Assembly (NCBI RefSeq): GCF_000348785.1 | Contig: NC_020520.1 | Location: 1,922,001-1,986,000, forward strand | DNA from: Ilumatobacter coccineus YM16-304 | GTDB lineage: Bacteria > Actinomycetota > Acidimicrobiia > Acidimicrobiales > Ilumatobacteraceae | DNA: 64,000 nt | Direction of reading: 5' to 3' | Shown: positions 14,389-56,939 of the stretch, one piece after another | Position numbering within the stretch: position 1 is the first letter of the stretch | Layout of the letters: every line of letters starts with the position of its first letter | Position numbers and translations under genes: made by a program | Notes under the pieces: model-generated | What the model was told of the DNA's origin: nothing | What the model saw: only the letters and a program-made list of their open reading frames with translations | Databases searched by the model: none

Positions 14389-14910
14389 CTACGGGTGAGC
14401 GCCGCGAACCCCGTCGAGGAGCATGGCATCGACGTCGACCTCGCCGTGCAGAACGCTGATGTCGCCGGTGGTCTCGAGCACGACGGCGCGCACTTGCGAC
14501 AGTTGCAGCACGTTCGCTTCACGGAGCTTCGCGACGACGTCGCTGCGCGTGACCCGGCACCTCGTCATCGCCGCCTCGTCGAACGCTCCGTCGCGCATGA
14601 GCAGTTGCGGGGTGTTGTCGACGATCGTGCCGAACGACATCGTGCGGCGCAGGATCGAGATGACGGCTTGCACGATGAGCAGGGCGGCGATGCCGACGAC
14701 GCCGTTGGCGACCGGGGTCGAGGTGGCGACTGCGCTGGCCAGGATCGAGCCGATGGCGACGGTGACGGCGAAGTCGAAGCTCGACATCTTCGACAGTGAG
14801 CGCAGCCCGATGACACGGATGGCGCCGATGACGAGCGTGACCATGATGACCGCCGAGAGCGCGACGAGTCCGGCCTGCTCCCACGATGTCCAGATCCAGT
14901 CGGCGAACAC
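14389..14910 (-). CDS. DUF421 (YetF/YcaP-type) membrane protein
   Basis: 173 residues from a GTG at 14910 (V-FADWIWTSWEQ). Three N-terminal membrane helices include LRSLSKMSSFDFAVTVAIGS, the core DUF421 signature. A small cytoplasmic domain follows, with PQLLMRDGAFDEAAM and the closing VVLETTGDISVL. YetF-like proteins are envelope-associated; their biochemical role is unknown. The start is chosen because an ATG further in would remove half of the first helix. Confidence 0.8.
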   Translation of the reverse strand: MFADWIWTSWEQAGLVALSAVIMVTLVIGAIRVIGLRSLSKMSSFDFAVTVAIGSILASAVATSTPVANGVVGIAALLIVQAVISILRRTMSFGTIVDNTPQLLMRDGAFDEAAMTRCRVTRSDVVAKLREANVLQLSQVRAVVLETTGDISVLHGEVDVDAMLLDGVRGAHP

Positions 14911-15020
14911 GTCACCACCACCCGAGCGTCGGTCCGTGACCGGTACTCGGTCGTCGAGACGAATGGAAGTTGCGGCTGCTGCTGTCCATGAACCATTGGT
15001 AGCAGCCCAACCACCGCGAC

Positions 15021-15200
15021 GATTTCTGCCCAGGCTCGATGTGTACGCGTGAGGGTGATTTCTGCCCAGGCTCGATGTGTACGCGTGGGGGTGATTTCTG
15101 CCCAGGCTCGATGTGTACGCGTGGGGGTGATTTCTGCCCAGGCTCGATGTGTACGCGTGAGGGTGATTTCTGCCCAGGCCAAATGTGGTCGTTTGGGCGG
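15021..15200. repeat. Tandem array A: five 36-bp units
   Basis: Five head-to-tail units of exactly 36 bp start at 15021, 15057, 15093, 15129 and 15165. Each begins GATTTCTGCCCAGGC and ends with a GTG(A/G)GGGT-like segment. Units 1-4 differ only at one position; unit 5 is diverged. There are no spacers. A second array of the same unit is at 17927-18106, and the two bracket the ABC exporter operon. Confidence 0.9.
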
Positions 15201-15211
15201 TGGTGCTGGCG

Positions 15212-16885
15212 TTACGAGAGGGCGATGTCTCGTCGGTCGAGGGCGGCGAAGGCGAGCGCCGAGAGCGCGGTGGCGACGGCGAGCAGGACGACGACCGGGA
15301 CGGCATCGAACGATTCGGCGGGCATCGCCGGAACGTGCTGGAAGGGGGAGAGGTCGTGAACCCAGGTCGGCAGGTGCAACACCGATCCGAAGATGCCGAC
15401 CACGAACGCGAACAAGACGAGTCCCCACGCCGACGGTGCGAACCTCGGAGCGATCGCGACGACGCTGAACGCGGCGGCCGACATGACGAACAGAGCAGGC
15501 GTCATCACCAGCGCGGCCGCCAGGAGCGGCGGAGCGTCGGAGAGATCGCCTGTCATGACGGCGTAGCCCGCCCCCACTCCGAGTCCGGTTGCGGTCATGA
15601 CCACCAGCGACCCGATCGACGCGACCACGAGGTGGCTCGCTGCCCACGAACGCCGCGAGGTCGCCGTCGACAGGATCACGTCGGCGTGCGTCGAGGTCTC
15701 CTCCCGCCGAAGCCGCAGTACCGAGCTGACGCTGAACGCCGAAGCGATGAGCGCGAGGATCAGCACCGAGGTCGAGAGGAACGCGTCGGTGATCGAGGCA
15801 TTGCCGAGTTGTGCGAAGAAGTCGGCCATGTCGGGACTGTCTTCGATGATCGATTCGGCTTGGTCGGCCACGATTCCGTAGAAGAATCCGAACACGCCCA
15901 AGCTGAGCGACCAGCCGACGATCGAGCTGCGATGGAGCCGGAACGCGAGGCCGAGCGGTGATGCGAGGCGGTCGGACGCCTCCGGGCGCCCCGCTCGCTG
16001 CGTGAGCATTCCAGCGCCGTGGTCGCGTCGATCTTCCAGCGAGACCGCAACGAGTGCGACGACCCCAGCGACGCCGAGTTGCAGCGCGAGCACCCACCAC
16101 CGCTCGTTCGCGAAGGCACGGATGGCCTGCGCCCAGCCGAGCGGCGACAACCACGACAGCCGGCCGTCGCCGACGTCGCCGACGGCTCGAAGCACGAACG
16201 AGACGGCGATCACGATTCCGCCGAGTCCGAGAGCTGCTCGCGACCGCTCGGCGACCTGGGAGGCCACGGCGGCGACGGTGGCGAACACCATTCCGGACGC
16301 GACGAGCGTCGACCCGAACGCGAGCGAGCCGACGGTCGAAAGCCCGTAGGCCACGAGCGTGGCGACGATGCCGCCGGCGATCACCAGGTCGCTGATCGCC
16401 ATCCCGGCGAACGCGGCGGTCAGCGACGCGTGCCTGCCGATCGGAGCTGCACGCAACAGTTCGGCTCGGTTGGTCTCCTCGGCGGTGCGTGTGTGGCGAA
16501 CGATGCCGAACAGGTTCATGACGGCGAACGCGATGATGATCCAGATGCCGAGTTCGTTCATCGTCACCGAGCCCAGCGTCGGATCGTCGAGTCCGTAGCC
16601 CGGACCGGCTTGCACGATCAGCGCGGCGTTGTCTCGCACGAGCGTGCCGTAGCCGTCGAGTTCGGCTTGCGTGTCGTAGAGCCTGGCCAGGCTCTGACAG
16701 GTCGCCGCGGTCAGCCCGACGATGCCGATGAACCAGAGTGAGAGACGGAATCGGTCGAGACGGAGTTGCAACCGCAGCAGCGAGCCGAGTCCGGCGAGTC
16801 CACCGGTGCGAGCGCTGCTGCCCGGCCCGGATCTCGCGGTGCGCTCGACGTCGGGCAGGAGGGTGCTCGGCCCGTACGAGGTCAT
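15212..16885 (-). CDS. ABC exporter permease (two-half, antibiotic-efflux type)
   Basis: 557 residues with about twelve membrane segments in two repeated halves, [17 protein letters not shown] near 50 and [17 protein letters not shown] near 325. This is the layout of TnrB/tetronasin-type exporter permeases that work with one ATPase. A cytoplasmic loop near 285-310 is polar. Its start overlaps the ATPase stop by ATGA, so the two are co-translated. Substrate unknown; drugs or lipids are likely by family. Confidence 0.85.
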
Positions 16886-17805
16886 CGCTCGGGCGTGTCG
16901 GGGGCGGCGTCTGGTGCCACCGACGTGCCGTCGTAGTGGTGGAGGAACAACTCTTCGAGGCTTGGTGGCTGGCTGGTCAGCGAGGTGATGCCGAACCCGG
17001 AGAGATGTCGGATCGCTTCGTCGAGCGACTCACGGTCGACGTCGAACATCAGTCGTTCGCCGTCGTGACGCACGTTGTGTGTGCCGTCGATGCGGGCCAC
17101 GTCGTCGGCGGGTCGTTCGGTGGTGGCCGTGATGCTCGTGCGGGCGAGTGATCGCAGCTCGCCGAGTGTTCCGTCTCGCACCGTCCGACCGGAGCGGATG
17201 ATCGTGACGTGATCGCAGAGCTTCTCGACCTCGCCGAGGATGTGGCTCGAGAGCAGCACGGTCCGTCCCTGCGAGGCGACCTCCTTGATGCACTGTTCGA
17301 ACACCGATTCCATAAGGGGGTCGAGGCCCGACGTGGGCTCGTCGAGGAGGAGGAGTTCGACGTCGGACGCGAGGCCGGCGACGAGCGCGACCTTCTGTCG
17401 GTTGCCCTTCGAGTAGGTGCGGTTCTTCTTGCTGGGGTCGAGGTCGAAGCGGTCGATGAGGTCGGCGCGACGCTGTTGGTCGATCCCGCCGCGGAGGCGC
17501 CCGAGCAGGTCGATCGTCTCGCCACCCGACAGATTCGGCCACAGGTTGACGTCGCCGGGCACGTACGCGAGTCGACGATGGAGTTCGACGGCGTCGTTCC
17601 ACGGATCGGCTCCGAGTACGGTCGTGGTCCCGCTGTCGGCTCGCAGGAGGCCGAGCAGGATGCGGATGGTGACCGACTTTCCCGCTCCGTTCGGTCCGAG
17701 GAAGCCGTGCACGTCGCCGGTGGCCACGTGCAGGTCGAGGCCGTCGAGTGCGCGCACGGATCCGAATGTCTTCACCACGTTCGACGCGGCGATCGCTGCG
17801 GTCAT
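16882..17805 (-). CDS. ABC exporter ATP-binding protein
   Basis: 307 residues from the ATG at 17805 with GAAGGAGG upstream. Walker A is GPNGAGKS, the signature is the variant YSKGNRQKV common in DrrA-like exporters, Walker B is [13 protein letters not shown], and the switch His lies in [11 protein letters not shown]-terminal ~80-residue domain is typical of DrrA/TnrB2 ATPases. It is the first gene of the exporter operon; the 36-bp array B begins 121 bp upstream of its start and could lie near or within its promoter region. Confidence 0.92.
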
Positions 17806-17926
17806 GCGTTCCTCCTTCGACGTTCGACCCTCAGTCTGGCCGACGCCGCCAGCCGACATCAGAGGAGAAGGTCATCTCGCTCGTCACGACGCCACGACGA
17901 GCCCAGCGAGCCACCACCCACAGGGT

Positions 17927-18106
17927 GATTTTTGCCCAGGCTCGATGTGGTCGCGTGGGGGTGATTTTCGGCCAGGCTCGATGTCGTCGCGTGGGGGTGA
18001 TTTTTGCCCAGGCCAGAAGTGGTCGCGTGAGGGTGATTTTTGCCCAGGCCAAATGTCGTCGCGTGGGGGTGATTTTTGGCCAGGCTCGATGTGGTCGCGT
18101 GGGTCA
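17927..18106. repeat. Tandem array B: five 36-bp units
   Basis: Units of exactly 36 bp start at 17927, 17963, 17999, 18035 and 18071. They begin GATTTTTGCCCAGGC or GATTTTTGGCCAGGC and share the core of array A. Variation is confined to the TGC/TCG/TGG step and the CTCGATG/CAGAAG/CAAATG step. The fifth unit runs into the SulP stop codon (18104-18106). Confidence 0.9.
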
Positions 18107-19870
18107 GTCGTCCCAGTTGGTCCAGTCGACGTCGTGGTCGTTCACGTGGGCCTTCACGGCCCGGCCGATCGTCGACGGGAATCCGTGCTCGCCGAGTCGG
18201 TCGTACAGGCCGTACTGGCGGAGCCGGTCCTTCACCGGCCCCTTGATCTCGGCGAACACGAGTTGTACGCCGCGCTGTTCGAGGTCGTCGAGCAGTGATT
18301 CGAGCATCGCCGCCGCGCTGGTGTCGATGTCGGTGATCGGCTCGGCTGCGACCACGATGCGGTCGATCGGATCGTCGGCCTCGTCGAGGATCTCGTGGAC
18401 TCGACGCGCGAAGTGATCGGCGTTGGCGAAGAACAGCGGAGCGTCGAACCGGAACAGCACGAGCCCGGGCACGCGCCGAGCATCCGGATGGCGAGTCAGA
18501 TCGTGGTAGCCCTTCCGTCCGTCGACGCGGCCGAGCACGGCGTCGTACGGGCGCCACAGTTGGCGCACGAAGTTGGCCAGCGACAGCACCACGGCGACGG
18601 CGAGTCCGGTGAGCACACCGAGCAGCACCACGGCGCCGGTTGCCACGACGCAGAGGGCGAACTCGCTGCGGCGTGCAACGAACAACCAGCGGAGTTGGCG
18701 AAGATCGAACAGGTGGATGGCGGCGGCGATGATGATCGCCGCGAGGGTCGTCGACGGGAGTTGCTCGACGAGTCCGCTCCCGCCGACGAGCAACGCCAGC
18801 ACCAGCGTGGCGCTCACGACACCGACGAGTTGCGTGTGCCCGCCGCTCGCCATGTTGGTGGTCGTCCGAGTCGTGCTGGCGCTCACCGGAAACCCTCCGA
18901 ACAGACCGGCGGCGACATTCGACGCTCCGAGCGCCACGATCTCGCGATTGGGATCGACGCGTTCGCCGGTGCGGGCCGCGAAGCCTCGCGAGAGCGCCGT
19001 GGTGTCGGTGAGCGTCACCCACGCCAGACCGAGTGAGGCGACGGCGAGCGACGGCACGGTGCTGAGTTCGATGCGGGGCCACGACGGGGTGGGAAAGCCG
19101 CTCGGGAGCGCGCCGATGACGTCGACGCCGTCATCGACGAGGCCAAGCGTTCGCACGGCGACGATGCTCGCGACGACGGCGATCAACACGCCGGGGATCT
19201 TCGGAGAGACTCGTGCGGCGGTGACGATCGTCGCCAGTGCGACCAGACCGAGCACGACGACAGTGGCGTCGACCCGGCCGTCGGCCACGCCTGACACGAA
19301 CTCGGCGCCCTGTTCGATCGGCATGTCGCCGTCGACCGAGAACCCCGCGAGCTTCGACAGCTGGCTCACGAGCATGACGATGGCGAGGCCGTTGAGGTAA
19401 CCGAGTTGCACCGGGCGGGAGAGCAGTTCGGCGATCGAGCCGAGTCGGGCGAGTCCGGCCGCCACGCAGACCGCGCCGGTCATGAGCGCCAACATCGCGG
19501 CGATGGCGATCGCCGTCGCCGGGTCGCCGTCGCTGGCGGTCAGCGCGATCGCCGCCGCGATCAGCGGGGCGAGTGACGAGTCGGGGCCGACCAGGAGCAG
19601 TCGTGACGGCCCGAGGATCGCGTAGGCGAGCACTGCGGCGACGGTCGTGTACAGACCGGTGACGGCGGGGACGCCGGCGAGTTCGGCGTACGCCATCCCG
19701 TGGGGGACCATCAGCGCGGTGACGGCGAGTCCGGCGACGAGGTCGCCGCGCAGGTACTCGCGTCGATACCCGTTGATCAGCATCGCCGCCGCGCCCAGCA
19801 CACGTTCGACGCCGCCATGGCGTTCATCGTACGACAGAGGCCGACCGAGCTCGGCCCGTCGCCAGAGCAC
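18104..19870 (-). CDS. SulP-family anion transporter with STAS domain
   Basis: Up to 588 residues. The SulP core shows LRGDLVAGLAVTALMVPHGMAYAELAG, then a series of membrane helices to about residue 430. A cytoplasmic STAS domain follows (about 445-560) with VLFRFDAPLFFANADHF and DIDTSAAAMLE. Members carry sulfate, bicarbonate or other anions. The frame opens at a GTG (19870); an ATG at 19783 (MLINGYRREYL) sits nearer the usual start, and the first ~29 residues may be untranslated. The stop codon lies inside repeat array B. Confidence 0.88.
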   Translation of the reverse strand: MLWRRAELGRPLSYDERHGGVERVLGAAAMLINGYRREYLRGDLVAGLAVTALMVPHGMAYAELAGVPAVTGLYTTVAAVLAYAILGPSRLLLVGPDSSLAPLIAAAIALTASDGDPATAIAIAAMLALMTGAVCVAAGLARLGSIAELLSRPVQLGYLNGLAIVMLVSQLSKLAGFSVDGDMPIEQGAEFVSGVADGRVDATVVVLGLVALATIVTAARVSPKIPGVLIAVVASIVAVRTLGLVDDGVDVIGALPSGFPTPSWPRIELSTVPSLAVASLGLAWVTLTDTTALSRGFAARTGERVDPNREIVALGASNVAAGLFGGFPVSASTTRTTTNMASGGHTQLVGVVSATLVLALLVGGSGLVEQLPSTTLAAIIIAAAIHLFDLRQLRWLFVARRSEFALCVVATGAVVLLGVLTGLAVAVVLSLANFVRQLWRPYDAVLGRVDGRKGYHDLTRHPDARRVPGLVLFRFDAPLFFANADHFARRVHEILDEADDPIDRIVVAAEPITDIDTSAAAMLESLLDDLEQRGVQLVFAEIKGPVKDRLRQYGLYDRLGEHGFPSTIGRAVKAHVNDHDVDWTNWDD

Positions 19871-22482: not shown

Positions 22483-25400
22483 ATGACACCGTCAGCAACG
22501 AATCACCACCGCACTCCCGGTCGGGAGCGACGCGCTCACCGCGGCCGCGTCGCTCGACGCGCGGTGATCGCCGTGTCACTCGCCGCCGGCTTCGTGGCGG
22601 CGCCGGCGTCGAGCGGTCAGGCCGAGCCACCGGTCGCAACCCAGCTCGATCTCGTCGGCCCGGAGGGCAGCGAGTTGTTCGGCGAAGACGTGCTCGTGCT
22701 GTCGAACGGCAACTACGTGGTGACCGATCCGGGATACGACCTCGATGGGATCGTGGACGTCGGCGCCGTGCACCTGTACGACGGCGAGACCAATCAGCTC
22801 ATCTCCACCGTCACCGGGTCGACCGCCGGTGACGAAGTCGGCAATCGAACCCCAGTCGAAGTGGGCGACGGCGACGTGGCGGTACTCGCATCGTCGTGGG
22901 ACTTCGGCGGGGTGGTGGATGCCGGGGCGCTGATCCACATCGACGGCACGCTCGGCTTCTCCGGTCAGATCGACCCGACGAACAGCCTGCACGGTACGGC
23001 CACAGACGACCTGCGCGGCACGATCGTGCCGCTGGCCAACGGCAACTACACGGCTCGCTTCCCCGACTGGGACGATGGAGCGACGATTGATGTCGGCGCC
23101 GTGGTGTTCTTTCCGGCGGAGGGCGGGGTCGTCGGACCCGTCACCACCGACAACAGCCTCCACGGCAGCAACGTCGGCGATCGTGTCGGCAGCGTCGGCG
23201 TGCTCGCGCTCGACAACGGCAACTACGTCGTGGGAAGCCACGGCTGGAGCGACGGAGTGACGAGCCGGATCGGTGCGTCGACGTGGGTCGATGGCACGAC
23301 CGGCCTCACCGGCCCGGTCACCACATCGAACAGCCTGCACGGTTCCAGCCCGAACGACGAGGTCGGTACTGCACGGCAGGTCGGCGACTCGAACTACGTG
23401 GTGACGAATTCGGTGTGGGACGGACCGGTCGTCGACGGCGGAGCGGTCACGTGGGTCGACGGTTCGACGGGCCTGACCGGGCCGGTCACGACGTCGAACA
23501 GTCTGTACGGCACGACGGTCGGCGACAGGGTCGGCAGCGCCGGGATCACGACGCTCGTCAACGGCAACTACATCGTGGGCACGTACCTCTGGGACTTCGG
23601 CATTCTGACCGACGTGGGCGCCGCCACCTGGGCCGACGGTGACACCGGCATCACCGGTCCGGTCACGCCAGCCAACAGCTTGCACGGCACGACCGCCAAC
23701 GATTTCGTCGGTCTCAACGGCGTCGTCGCACTCACCAACGGCAACTATGTGGTCAACGCCAACCAGTGGGACAACGGCGCGTTGGTCAACGCCGGCGCCG
23801 CGGTGTGGGGCGATGGCACGACGGGCATCAGTGGTCCGGTCACGACCAGCAACAGCCTGTACGGCACGAGTGCGGAGGATTCCGTCGGACGCTCGGTCGC
23901 GCTCGCCAACGGCCACTACGTCGTCACCTCGCGTTCGTGGGACGATGGAGCGACCCCCGATGTCGGGGCGGTCACGTGGGGCGACGGCACGACGGGCATC
24001 ACCGGGCCGATCACGACCGCCAACAGCATGCACGGCACGACCGCCAATGATTCGGTCGGGTTCGTCTCCTCGCTGTCCAACGGTGACTACGTCGTGTTGG
24101 CTCGCGACTGGGACAACGGGGCGCTGGTCGACGCCGGGGCCGTCGTGCTCGCCGATGGTGCGATGGGCACGACCGGTCCGGTCACGACCGACAACAGCCT
24201 GCACGGCACGCAGGCCGGCGATCGGATCGGCTTGTACGGAGCTGTCGAGTTGACCGACGGCAACTACGTGGTCGTGAGCCCGGCGTGGGCGTTCGGTGCC
24301 GAACAATACGCGGGCGCGATCACCTGGGTCGACGGCTCGACGGGAAGCCCGGGGCCGGTCACCGCCGGCAACAGTCTCCACGGCTCGACGACCGGCGATG
24401 CGGTCGGCTCGGTCGATAGCGGGGGTGGGGTCATCGCGCTGCCGCGAGGTCGTTACGTGGTCGTGAGCGACGAGTGGGACGACGGTGGCATGGCCGACGT
24501 CGGAGCGGTCACGGTCGGACGCAGCGGCGGGAGCACCGGCCCGGTCACGGCCGAGAACAGCGCCATCGGCACCCCGGGGGTCGGTATGGACCTCATCGGC
24601 GAGGCGGTCGAAACGGTCACCGCCGGCGGAGCCATCGTGGTGCAGACCTTCCAGAACCGGGTGATCCTCGTCCTGTCGGATCTGGTGTCGCGGAACCCGG
24701 CCCGCCTGCTCGACACTCGGTCGGGCGACGGCATCTCGACGGTCGACGGACTCGCCCTCGGCTGGGGTCGAGTCGATCCGGGCACGGCCATCCAGATCCA
24801 GATCGCCGGGCGCGGCGGCGTGCCGTCGAACGCTCGCACGGCGACGCTCAACCTCGCGTCGATCGCGCCGACGGGCGTCGGGTACGCCACGTTGTACCCG
24901 TGCACCGACGAGCCGCCGCTCGTGTCGGCGCTCAACTATCAGGCGGGTAGCAACGTCTCGAACGCCACGCTGGTCACCCTGTCGGATGCGGGCACGATCT
25001 GCCTGTTCTCGTCGGCGTCGGCGCACTATGCGATCGACGTGGTCGGGTACACGCCCGACGGGTCGCGAGTCGGCACGCTCGAGCCGGGTCGTCTGCTCGA
25101 CACGCGGTCGGGGCCCGACATCGCCACGGTCGACGGCGAGTCGCTCGGCGCCGGTCGCCTGCTCGCCGGAGCGTTCGTCGAGGTCGAGGTGGCGGGCCGC
25201 GGTTCGGTGCCCGACGATGCGACGTCGGCGATCCTCAACCTGGCGGCGATCGCCCCGTCGGGTCGCGGGTTCGCGACGCTGTACCCGTGCACGCCGGAAC
25301 GCCCGGTCGTGTCGGCGCTCAACTACGAGGCGGGGCAGAACATCTCCAACGCCACGGTCGTGAAGCTCAGCGAGACCGGCACGGTGTGCTTGTACACGTC

Positions 25401-25833
25401 GACCGAGGCGCACTACGCCCTCGACGTGTCGGGCTTCGTCCCGCCCGGGTCGAACTTCGAGACGCTCGAGCCAGGCCGACTGCTCGACACGCGATTCGGC
25501 GACGACATCACGACGGTCGACGGTGTCGGCGTGGGCGCCGGCCGCGTGGAAGCGATGGGTGTGATCGAGGTGCCGGTGGCCGGACGTGGGGGAGTGCCGA
25601 CGGGTGCCGAATCGGCGCTGGTCAACCTCGCCACGGTGGCGCCGGGCGGCAAGGGCTACGCGACGTTGTATCCCTGCACCGACTCGCCGCCCAACGCGTC
25701 GTCGCTCAACTATGAAGCGTCGTCGAACATCTCCAACGCAACGCTCGTTCGCCTCTCCGACCAGGGCAACGTCTGCGTGTTCACCTCCGCCGAGGCCCAC
25801 CTCGCACTCGACGTCCTCGGCTTCGTCGAGTAG
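22483..25833 (+). CDS. Large secreted repeat protein with three C-terminal LDTR domains
   Basis: 1116 residues from the ATG at 22483, with GGAGGA upstream. The signal peptide (about 1-48) has a basic start, RRAVIAVSLAAGF, and an Ala-rich end. Residues ~50-735 are about ten ~62-residue repeats of the form NSLHGT..D.VG, NGNYVV, W..G, GA.TW.DG, probably beta-propeller or beta-solenoid blades. Residues ~740-1116 are three ~125-residue domains starting PGRLLDTR, each with Cys pairs (LYPCT, CLF/CVF). No anchor is visible. Likely surface or matrix; the role is not known. Longer frames through the G-run are rejected. Confidence 0.8.
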   Translation: MTPSATNHHRTPGRERRAHRGRVARRAVIAVSLAAGFVAAPASSGQAEPPVATQLDLVGPEGSELFGEDVLVLSNGNYVVTDPGYDLDGIVDVGAVHLYDGETNQLISTVTGSTAGDEVGNRTPVEVGDGDVAVLASSWDFGGVVDAGALIHIDGTLGFSGQIDPTNSLHGTATDDLRGTIVPLANGNYTARFPDWDDGATIDVGAVVFFPAEGGVVGPVTTDNSLHGSNVGDRVGSVGVLALDNGNYVVGSHGWSDGVTSRIGASTWVDGTTGLTGPVTTSNSLHGSSPNDEVGTARQVGDSNYVVTNSVWDGPVVDGGAVTWVDGSTGLTGPVTTSNSLYGTTVGDRVGSAGITTLVNGNYIVGTYLWDFGILTDVGAATWADGDTGITGPVTPANSLHGTTANDFVGLNGVVALTNGNYVVNANQWDNGALVNAGAAVWGDGTTGISGPVTTSNSLYGTSAEDSVGRSVALANGHYVVTSRSWDDGATPDVGAVTWGDGTTGITGPITTANSMHGTTANDSVGFVSSLSNGDYVVLARDWDNGALVDAGAVVLADGAMGTTGPVTTDNSLHGTQAGDRIGLYGAVELTDGNYVVVSPAWAFGAEQYAGAITWVDGSTGSPGPVTAGNSLHGSTTGDAVGSVDSGGGVIALPRGRYVVVSDEWDDGGMADVGAVTVGRSGGSTGPVTAENSAIGTPGVGMDLIGEAVETVTAGGAIVVQTFQNRVILVLSDLVSRNPARLLDTRSGDGISTVDGLALGWGRVDPGTAIQIQIAGRGGVPSNARTATLNLASIAPTGVGYATLYPCTDEPPLVSALNYQAGSNVSNATLVTLSDAGTICLFSSASAHYAIDVVGYTPDGSRVGTLEPGRLLDTRSGPDIATVDGESLGAGRLLAGAFVEVEVAGRGSVPDDATSAILNLAAIAPSGRGFATLYPCTPERPVVSALNYEAGQNISNATVVKLSETGTVCLYTSTEAHYALDVSGFVPPGSNFETLEPGRLLDTRFGDDITTVDGVGVGAGRVEAMGVIEVPVAGRGGVPTGAESALVNLATVAPGGKGYATLYPCTDSPPNASSLNYEASSNISNATLVRLSDQGNVCVFTSAEAHLALDVLGFVE

Positions 25834-25845
25834 CTGGTGACGCCG

Positions 25846-25878
25846 CCGGACGGTTTGTCTCAGAGACAAACCGTCCGG
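25846..25878. terminator. 33-nt palindromic element, copy 1
   Basis: Two perfect 16-nt arms, CCGGACGGTTTGTCTC and its complement, surround one A. It lies 12 bp after the surface protein stop and 49 bp before the P450 start. Identical copies are at 27179 and 56907. The position after stop codons suggests a bidirectional terminator or REP-like element. Confidence 0.75.
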
Positions 25879-27178: not shown

Positions 27179-27211
27179 CCGGACGGTTTGTCTCAGAGAC
27201 AAACCGTCCGG
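27179..27211. terminator. 33-nt palindromic element, copy 2
   Basis: Identical to the copy at 25846. It starts one base after the P450 stop codon. Confidence 0.75.
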
Positions 27212-29113: not shown

Positions 29114-29122
29114 CCGCTGCGT

Positions 29123-29145
29123 CATCCGGTGTCAGACACCAGATG
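29123..29145. repeat. Short palindrome, copy 2 (CATC-CGGTGTC-A-GACACCA-GATG)
   Basis: It shares GGTGTC-A-GACACC with the palindrome at 312-326 and extends it with CATC/GATG arms. A third, partial relative (TGTCAGGCACC) follows at 29151. It lies 48 bp before the response regulator start. Confidence 0.5.
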
Positions 29146-29192
29146 ATGGATGTCAGGCACCGTTCGCACTGCCGCGGCTATGGTGACCTGCC

Positions 29193-56906: not shown

Positions 56907-56939
56907 CCGGACGGTTTGTCTCAGAGACAAACCGTCCGG
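56907..56939. terminator. 33-nt palindromic element, copy 3
   Basis: Identical to copies at 25846 and 27179. It lies between two minus-strand genes, just after the stop of the NAD(P)-binding gene and upstream of the MFS gene. Confidence 0.75.

Follow-up and report, generated by a model that had tools for sequence, protein, structure and literature searches.

Two arrays beside an ABC exporter belong to a genome-wide repeat family

In a 64,000-nucleotide stretch of the chromosome of Ilumatobacter coccineus YM16-304 (the window), two arrays of 36-bp tandem units, here called arrays A and B, lie on either side of the genes of an ATP-binding cassette (ABC) exporter. This arrangement raises the question of whether the arrays serve the exporter, as regulator-binding sites or as recombination ends that move it as a cassette, or whether they belong to something wider. 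Our results show that arrays A and B are members of one genome-wide repeat family. The family is probably a REP-like one (repetitive extragenic palindromic) that is linked to a RAYT (REP-associated tyrosine transposase) and was spread in single-stranded form on the lagging-strand template.

The genome of this organism, a non-pathogenic marine actinobacterium, is a single contig of 4,830,181 bases (G000:C1), and the window corresponds to G000:C1:1922001-1986000. When the 18-bp core of the unit, GGTGATTTYTGSCCAGGC, was searched with up to two mismatches, 144 + 120 sites were found in the genome. The reversed control pattern gave only 1 + 0 sites; therefore, chance is excluded. A BLAST search with array B as the query gave 67 matches. 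Stretches around the matches were fetched and units were called in them by a position weight matrix, which gave at least 46 loci with 257 units. A locus holds 1 to 10 units, most commonly 5 or 7. The scanned stretches cover 142 of the 144 exact core sites and 246 of the 264 sites with two mismatches, all of them within the 46 loci. One uncovered exact site, the only uncovered site that was assigned to a chromosome arm, is a singlet on the minus strand at 4115339, consistent with the replichore rule described below. Since 194 of the 211 unit-to-unit steps are exactly 36 bp, without a spacer, the arrays are not CRISPRs, as the first-pass annotation had stated. The unit is not special to the exporter region.

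The family was absent from the 59 relatives searched, where the core occurs 0 to 2 times per genome, as compared with 264 times here. By our count, these relatives hold 21 core sites in 17 genomes and 9 control sites in 8 genomes. Among 395 genomes of the class, the tandem core was found in one, that of the strain itself, and was absent from the 394 others.

Orientation of the arrays follows the replichores

The dnaA gene is located at 229-1626, and the origin was taken to be near position 1. The arrays on the right arm are 21 plus and 1 minus and those on the left arm are 4 plus and 20 minus, whether the switch is set at 2.6, 2.8 or 3.0 Mb (Fisher 3.5e-8). When the switch was placed at the chromosome midpoint, the counts were 20 plus and 1 minus versus 5 plus and 20 minus (Fisher 1.7e-7). 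Thus, the orientation agrees with the replichore at 41 of the 46 loci (40 with the midpoint switch). Counted by units, the right arm has 110 plus and 3 minus and the left arm 24 plus and 120 minus. The polarity persisted when the set was thinned so that neighbouring loci were separated by more than 15 kb, which left 37 loci (16 plus and 1 minus versus 4 plus and 16 minus, p 6.9e-6). Only three loci are of mixed strand, and these were scored by their majority strand; without them, 40 of 43 agree. Read in this way, the polarity makes the listed strand of the unit the template of lagging-strand synthesis.

Where the two neighbouring genes are co-directional, the units run with the genes in 9 cases and against them in 11. 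Therefore, gene direction is not the cause of the polarity, and an orientation linked to transcription was rejected. Strand skew offered no obvious cause either, as the array stretches have only a small GC skew, of mixed sign (-0.067 to +0.051).

A ten-unit array (L016, G000:C1:3833510-3833869) has the wrong orientation for its arm and uniformly lower scores. It may represent a subfamily, or an inversion that took place long ago.

The arrays lie between genes and at a switch of strand composition

Genes were called with our own codon-usage script, which gave 474 genes and 86.7% coding. A link of the units to gene boundaries, which the first-pass annotation had made the point on which its reading hung, is present: all 46 loci are intergenic, although at 12 of them there is an overlap of 1-15 bp with the end of a predicted gene. 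Of the loci, 20 lie between co-directional genes, 15 between convergent ones and 11 between divergent ones. In array-free gaps of the same stretches, the numbers are 168, 55 and 66.

The 40 bp upstream of the arrays are C-rich (skew -0.28, in 37 of 43 arrays) and the 40 bp downstream are G-rich (skew +0.36, in 39 of 43). The corresponding values in the array-free control gaps are +0.036 (74/185) and +0.044 (103/185). The switch has faded by about 80-120 bp, and its sign is constant across all four gene contexts. This change from C-rich to G-rich sequence may reflect a target preference. The upstream and downstream flanks of a locus pair no better with each other (-36.90 kcal/mol) than with the flanks of other loci (-36.92 kcal/mol). 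Thus, the flanks are compositional and do not form a stem, and inverted-repeat flanks were rejected. Degenerate units beyond the array ends are not general, as one was found upstream (reverse strand, score above 0) and one downstream (score above -10) among 43 arrays; none of the 86 control stretches reached those scores.

The first and last units of an array differ

In the 36 single-orientation arrays with at least four units, the first and last units were compared at five positions picked after the consensus had been viewed. A at position 2 is present in 16 first units and in no last unit. C9 is found in 32 first and 11 last units, G12 in 1 and 21, and A35 in 30 and 5. The p values at these four positions range from 3.5e-9 to 3.6e-6, while the fifth, C26 (18 versus 9), gave p 0.051. 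Since the two ends differ, the arrays fit insertion as two-ended blocks and do not fit independent growth from single units. The unit identity is 0.857 within arrays and 0.805 between arrays, the former exceeding all of 200 permutations (maximum 0.816). Therefore, the arrays also amplify locally. Only 3 of 903 array pairs have an identical stretch of at least 72 bases in common; thus, recent whole-array copies are few.

Of the 43 single-orientation arrays, 16 have TGAG or CGAG (YGAG) as their 5′ edge, and position -2 is A in 84%. The units mostly end in GTGAG or GTGGG, and no strict GT[AG]G foot is apparent. In a palindrome register that we chose from units of the mixed or spaced type, the mixed or spaced loci form 7.0 of 12 Watson-Crick pairs. 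Because these loci keep a stronger palindrome than the middle units of the arrays, this suggests that the tandem form was derived from a palindromic REP-like ancestor. The loci L017 (G000:C1:3869778-3870120), L046 and L047 contain mixed-strand, spaced and more palindromic units and are possibly an older REP-like form.

A RAYT-like transposase gene lies between two arrays

Outside the window, a gene for a RAYT-like Y1 (HUH) transposase is located directly between two arrays of the 36-bp family, so that the repeat is present on both sides (Table 1). The Y1_Tnp family (PF01797) has five matches in the genome, four of them above the cut-off. The match of the array-flanked gene is 42.5 bits at 3742074-3742403, and PF01797 on the protein gave 40 bits (cut-off 23). 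The residues H60 and H62 (HxH), the catalytic Y119, and N123 are invariant in 24 aligned homologues. This alignment includes 24 of the 32 distinct homologues, as short, broken or very similar sequences were omitted. An AlphaFold2 model of the 276-aa form has a pLDDT of 89. Its closest solved fold is PDB 4er8, a RAYT (TnpA-REP) with a REP hairpin (E 4.8e-7), followed by the ISDra2 and IS608 transposases. The sequence of the 264-aa form also matches PDB 4er8 (E 0.0016). The C-terminal region contains a helix-turn-helix that resembles Sigma70_r4_2 (26.2 bits, cut-off 25.7).

Other RAYT-like genes have their own repeats

Each of the four remaining Y1_Tnp genes in the genome is bordered at both ends by a repeat of its own, unlike the 36-bp unit. 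Homologues of the transposase were found in 20 of the 147 other relatives searched, and in our reading a repeat is present at or beside both gene ends at 19 of 27 homologue loci from other genomes. The nearest homologue (44% identity) is from a genome of the same genus (G002), where it is flanked by unrelated 33-bp palindromic tandem units around TTTCACGCCWGGCGTGAAA. This motif has 95 matches in G002 on 19 contigs, each palindromic site being counted on both strands; the control gave none. Motif spacings of 31-34 bp occur on 17 of the 19 contigs, including that of the transposase, and a direct-repeat structure was read at three loci (L054, L089 and L093). Since the paralogues, G002 and a genome of the same family (G027) carry their own repeats, the repeat differs from enzyme to enzyme and the association persists.

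Repeats of the paralogues are also found in the window. The near-perfect 32-bp palindrome CCGGACGGTTTGTCTCTGAGACAAACCGTCCG, which flanks one RAYT paralogue (L049), is present at window positions 25846-25878, 27179-27211 and 56907-56939 and in five further fetched stretches. Palindromes at 29120-29146 and 312-335 match, over 22-27 bases, the repeat flanking a third paralogue (L050); copies of this repeat are scattered over several other stretches.

A model of array spread and the points against it

These findings suggest transposition of the arrays. In the mechanism that we propose, the transposase would recognise the hairpin-capable strand of a unit block while the lagging-strand template at the replication fork exposes it in single-stranded form. 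The enzyme would cut near the YGAG/GTGRG guide motif at the 5′ edge of the block, and the cut block would be pasted into another lagging-strand template. Insertion into this template would fix the orientation relative to the fork, so that the arrays would lie on opposite strands on the two replichores. Units would afterwards multiply or shrink in place by tandem duplication, and the surviving insertions would be those between genes. In this respect the hint of mobility in the first-pass annotation fits the arrays themselves, whereas an exporter cassette is not supported.

A fuller version is offered tentatively, at somewhat under an even chance. In it, a RAYT with a helix-turn-helix tail lifts whole multi-unit arrays with distinct end units as single strands off the lagging-strand template and puts them back into such a template. 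This leaves a record of fork-coupled REP spread that is strand-polar and extends over the whole chromosome; the same enzyme class does so with unrelated units in related species, and the skew switch is its target preference. The family behaves like a RAYT-mobilised REP family, but we do not class its units as canonical REPs, because the flanks of the transposase gene are not inverted, the curated cut-off was missed and the palindrome appears to have decayed in most units.

Several points weigh against transposase-driven spread. With regard to the enzyme, the 42.5-bit match is not the sole best one in the genome, as a paralogue at 3756929 scores equally, and the NCBIfam model REP_Tyr_transpos, which has a cut-off of 80, gave 64.3 bits (E 1.1e-17; 264-aa form). 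The arrays on either side of the gene share one orientation and are not inverted, whereas RAYT genes are always flanked by inverted REPs according to the relevant part of an earlier report (PMC2817692). One further gene (4491345-4492826) is likewise enclosed by arrays. A repeat at both gene ends is absent from 8 of the 27 homologue loci elsewhere (L056, L057, L066, L071, L072, L076, L078 and L081), and the RAYT unit of G027 has 61 matches with at least 11 inverted pairs (22 of the 61), 149-152 bp apart, and no long tandem arrays. With regard to the units, three of five tried fold no better than shuffles and two have z below -2. The middle units pair weakly in the palindrome register (4.8 of 12 Watson-Crick; slid registers 1.4-3.7). 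The rarity of long exact sharing between arrays, like the tie with the paralogue, lowered our estimate slightly. Five loci are oriented contrary to their replichore. The terminus was not located, and the sole dif-like site (2871867) has three mismatches and unconvincing flanks. No transposition event or empty site was seen among the genomes compared, which include no close strain, and the intergenic placement depends on our own gene calls.

Alternative explanations

The strong polarity could also be expected if the arrays were functional polar signals, such as FtsK-orienting polar sequences (KOPS) or architecture-imparting sequences, which are read by a translocase, nucleoid or fork protein and whose direction is kept by selection. 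The intergenic loci and the constant phase of the repeated sites suit such signals, and KOPS likewise show polarity on both replichores. However, the density of KOPS-type motifs increases toward the terminus. The arrays show the opposite gradient: if the terminus is placed at 2.8 Mb, 31 of the 46 lie in the half nearer the origin (p 0.026). It would be strange for a core segregation signal to be missing, as the family is, from the relatives and, as the tandem core is, from the rest of the class. A lower family-matrix score was also obtained for the five discordant loci (44.7 versus 53.2, p 0.007), although the matrix was trained mostly on concordant loci. We therefore regard polar signals as rather unlikely. 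Ordinary variable-number tandem repeats, formed by replication slippage with no transposase, are unlikely as well. Slippage would account for the homogeneity within arrays as local tandem amplification, and the flanked RAYT gene would be a coincidence, a view that the second gene enclosed by arrays favours. But one unit type at 46 separate loci requires dispersal, and neither the distinct first and last units nor the replichore polarity is expected from slippage alone. In addition, the RAYT link recurs in G002, where the unit is an unrelated one.

We consider it quite improbable that the arrays are regulatory sites or terminators for the adjacent genes, the exporter genes included. They do lie beside gene ends, and convergent gaps are somewhat commoner with arrays (15/46) than without (55/289). 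However, all gene arrangements occur, 11 of the 46 being divergent, and the unit direction is independent of gene direction. Since the unit is also genome-wide, there is no fixed regulatory position, which disagrees with the proposal of a regulator-binding array for the exporter. The identity of the arrays as a known RNA family was rejected, because the three Rfam matches in window 14600-18500 are all far under the gathering scores. Movement of the exporter as a cassette between the two arrays, the other proposal of the first-pass annotation, is very improbable. Arrays A and B have the same orientation 2.7 kb apart, and close array pairs are in some excess (below 4 kb, 5 versus 1.95 expected from a jittered null, p 0.039; below 12 kb, 9 versus 5.6, p 0.074). 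On the other hand, 44 more arrays lie at other loci, and arrays A and B carry different private bases, so that they are not recent copies of each other. Relatives of the exporter occur in two other genomes (L009 and L010, Ilumatobacteraceae/Ilumatobacter sp.; ATPase 67-68% and permease 56-58% identical), where the 13.6-kb stretches contain neither the unit nor a match to SulP or DUF421. Thus, the exporter can occur without the arrays. No evidence for an exporter cassette or an exporter regulator was found.

Comparison with known systems

RAYT-linked spread can be compared with REPtrons and TIRtrons, in which, according to the sections of Di Nocera et al. 2013 (PMC3733652) that concern them, a Y1/HUH RAYT-like gene likewise lies beside its own repeat. 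In the same sections, REPtrons share with the present family more than 100 intergenic copies and the presence in one genome of several RAYT-like genes that are each accompanied by a different repeat. The present family differs from these REPtrons in its non-inverted flanks, apparently decayed palindrome, apparent lack of a strict GT[AG]G foot and strong replichore polarity.

A precedent for the polarity is found in Pseudomonas fluorescens SBW25, where the section on tandem GI-GIII REP arrays in Bertels and Rainey 2011 (PMC3116915) gives five forward arrays near 2 Mb and six reverse arrays near 4 Mb. Both cases have tandem REPs on opposite strands at opposite sides of the chromosome. As that section describes them, the SBW25 REPs are spaced 72 and 112 bp apart in few and regional arrays, whereas here the 36-bp units abut and the 46 loci are distributed around much of the chromosome. 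The section makes no general argument on polarity. REPINs and bacterial interspersed mosaic elements (BIMEs) are also dispersed RAYT-linked repeats, and the inverted pairs of G027 resemble them; the present arrays are not inverted pairs, and mixed strands are confined to the three loci.

The IS200/IS605 transposases work on the lagging-strand template, as stated in the part of PMC6006769 that deals with them. Those of IS608 and ISDra2 have a related fold. In contrast, the present arrays lack a transposase and would be carried passively, and no excision event was detected. A C-terminal helix-turn-helix is shared with TnpA-Y1 subclass 2.1 in the corresponding passage of Quentin et al. 2018 (PMC6006769). 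In that study, no REP-like sequences were found near subclass 2.1 genes, which differs from the present transposase. In that survey, as far as its main text goes, the Actinobacteridae sample has IS200-type subclass 1.1 only, and neither Acidimicrobiia nor Ilumatobacter is named. The spread of REP sequences is described as poorly understood in the relevant passage of another report (PMC8266576).

No earlier report of such arrays was found in our searches of open-licence PMC papers. The present results extend dispersed RAYT-linked tandem arrays to the Acidimicrobiia. As the orientation follows the fork and a RAYT-like gene lies between two arrays, the lagging-strand model is directly testable.

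Arrays A and B and their neighbours in the window

The first-pass annotation had placed two arrays of five 36-bp units behind the permease gene and ahead of the ATPase gene, up to the SulP stop codon, and this was confirmed (Table 1). Its array A is real, but the true unit start lies 3 bp before the claimed position 15021. Array A sits 14 bp beyond the permease stop, and the final base of array B directly adjoins the SulP stop codon (minus strand, 18104-18106). The array-specific bases are also real: four units of array A carry TGTACGCG, and those of array B TGGTCGCG or TCGTCGCG. Unit 1 of array A starts with GACGATTTC, a first-unit type found in other arrays too, and unit 5 is diverged at its 3′ end, where Tandem Repeats Finder (TRF) gives a copy count of 4.4. 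Both arrays run opposite to their neighbouring genes. The permease has no Pfam match at E 0.001.

Table 1. Features of the exporter locus (window positions) and of the transposase locus (positions on G000:C1)
Feature	Position	Strand	Description
Array A	15018..15197	+	Five 36-bp units; interval from permease stop to DUF421 gene
Array B	17924..18103	+	Five 36-bp units; interval from ABC ATPase start to SulP stop codon
DUF421 (YetF C-terminal domain) protein	14389..14910	-	PF04239; flanking gene, downstream of array A; start from our own gene caller
ABC exporter permease	15212..16885	-	Open reading frame; flanking gene, outside the element
ABC exporter ATPase, DrrA-like	16882..17859	-	PF00005 and PF13732; flanking gene
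SulP sulfate-permease family transporter with STAS domain	18104..19870	-	PF00916, PF01740; flanking gene
Three-unit array, upstream side of transposase gene	3741883-3741990	-	
RAYT-like Y1 (HUH) transposase gene	3742035-3742865		276 aa, preferred start; outside the window
Seven-unit array, downstream side of transposase gene	3742873-3743124	-	

Elsewhere in the window, TRF detected a 387-bp period at 24839-25553 (1.8 copies, 74% match), which is perhaps a repeated domain of a coding region.

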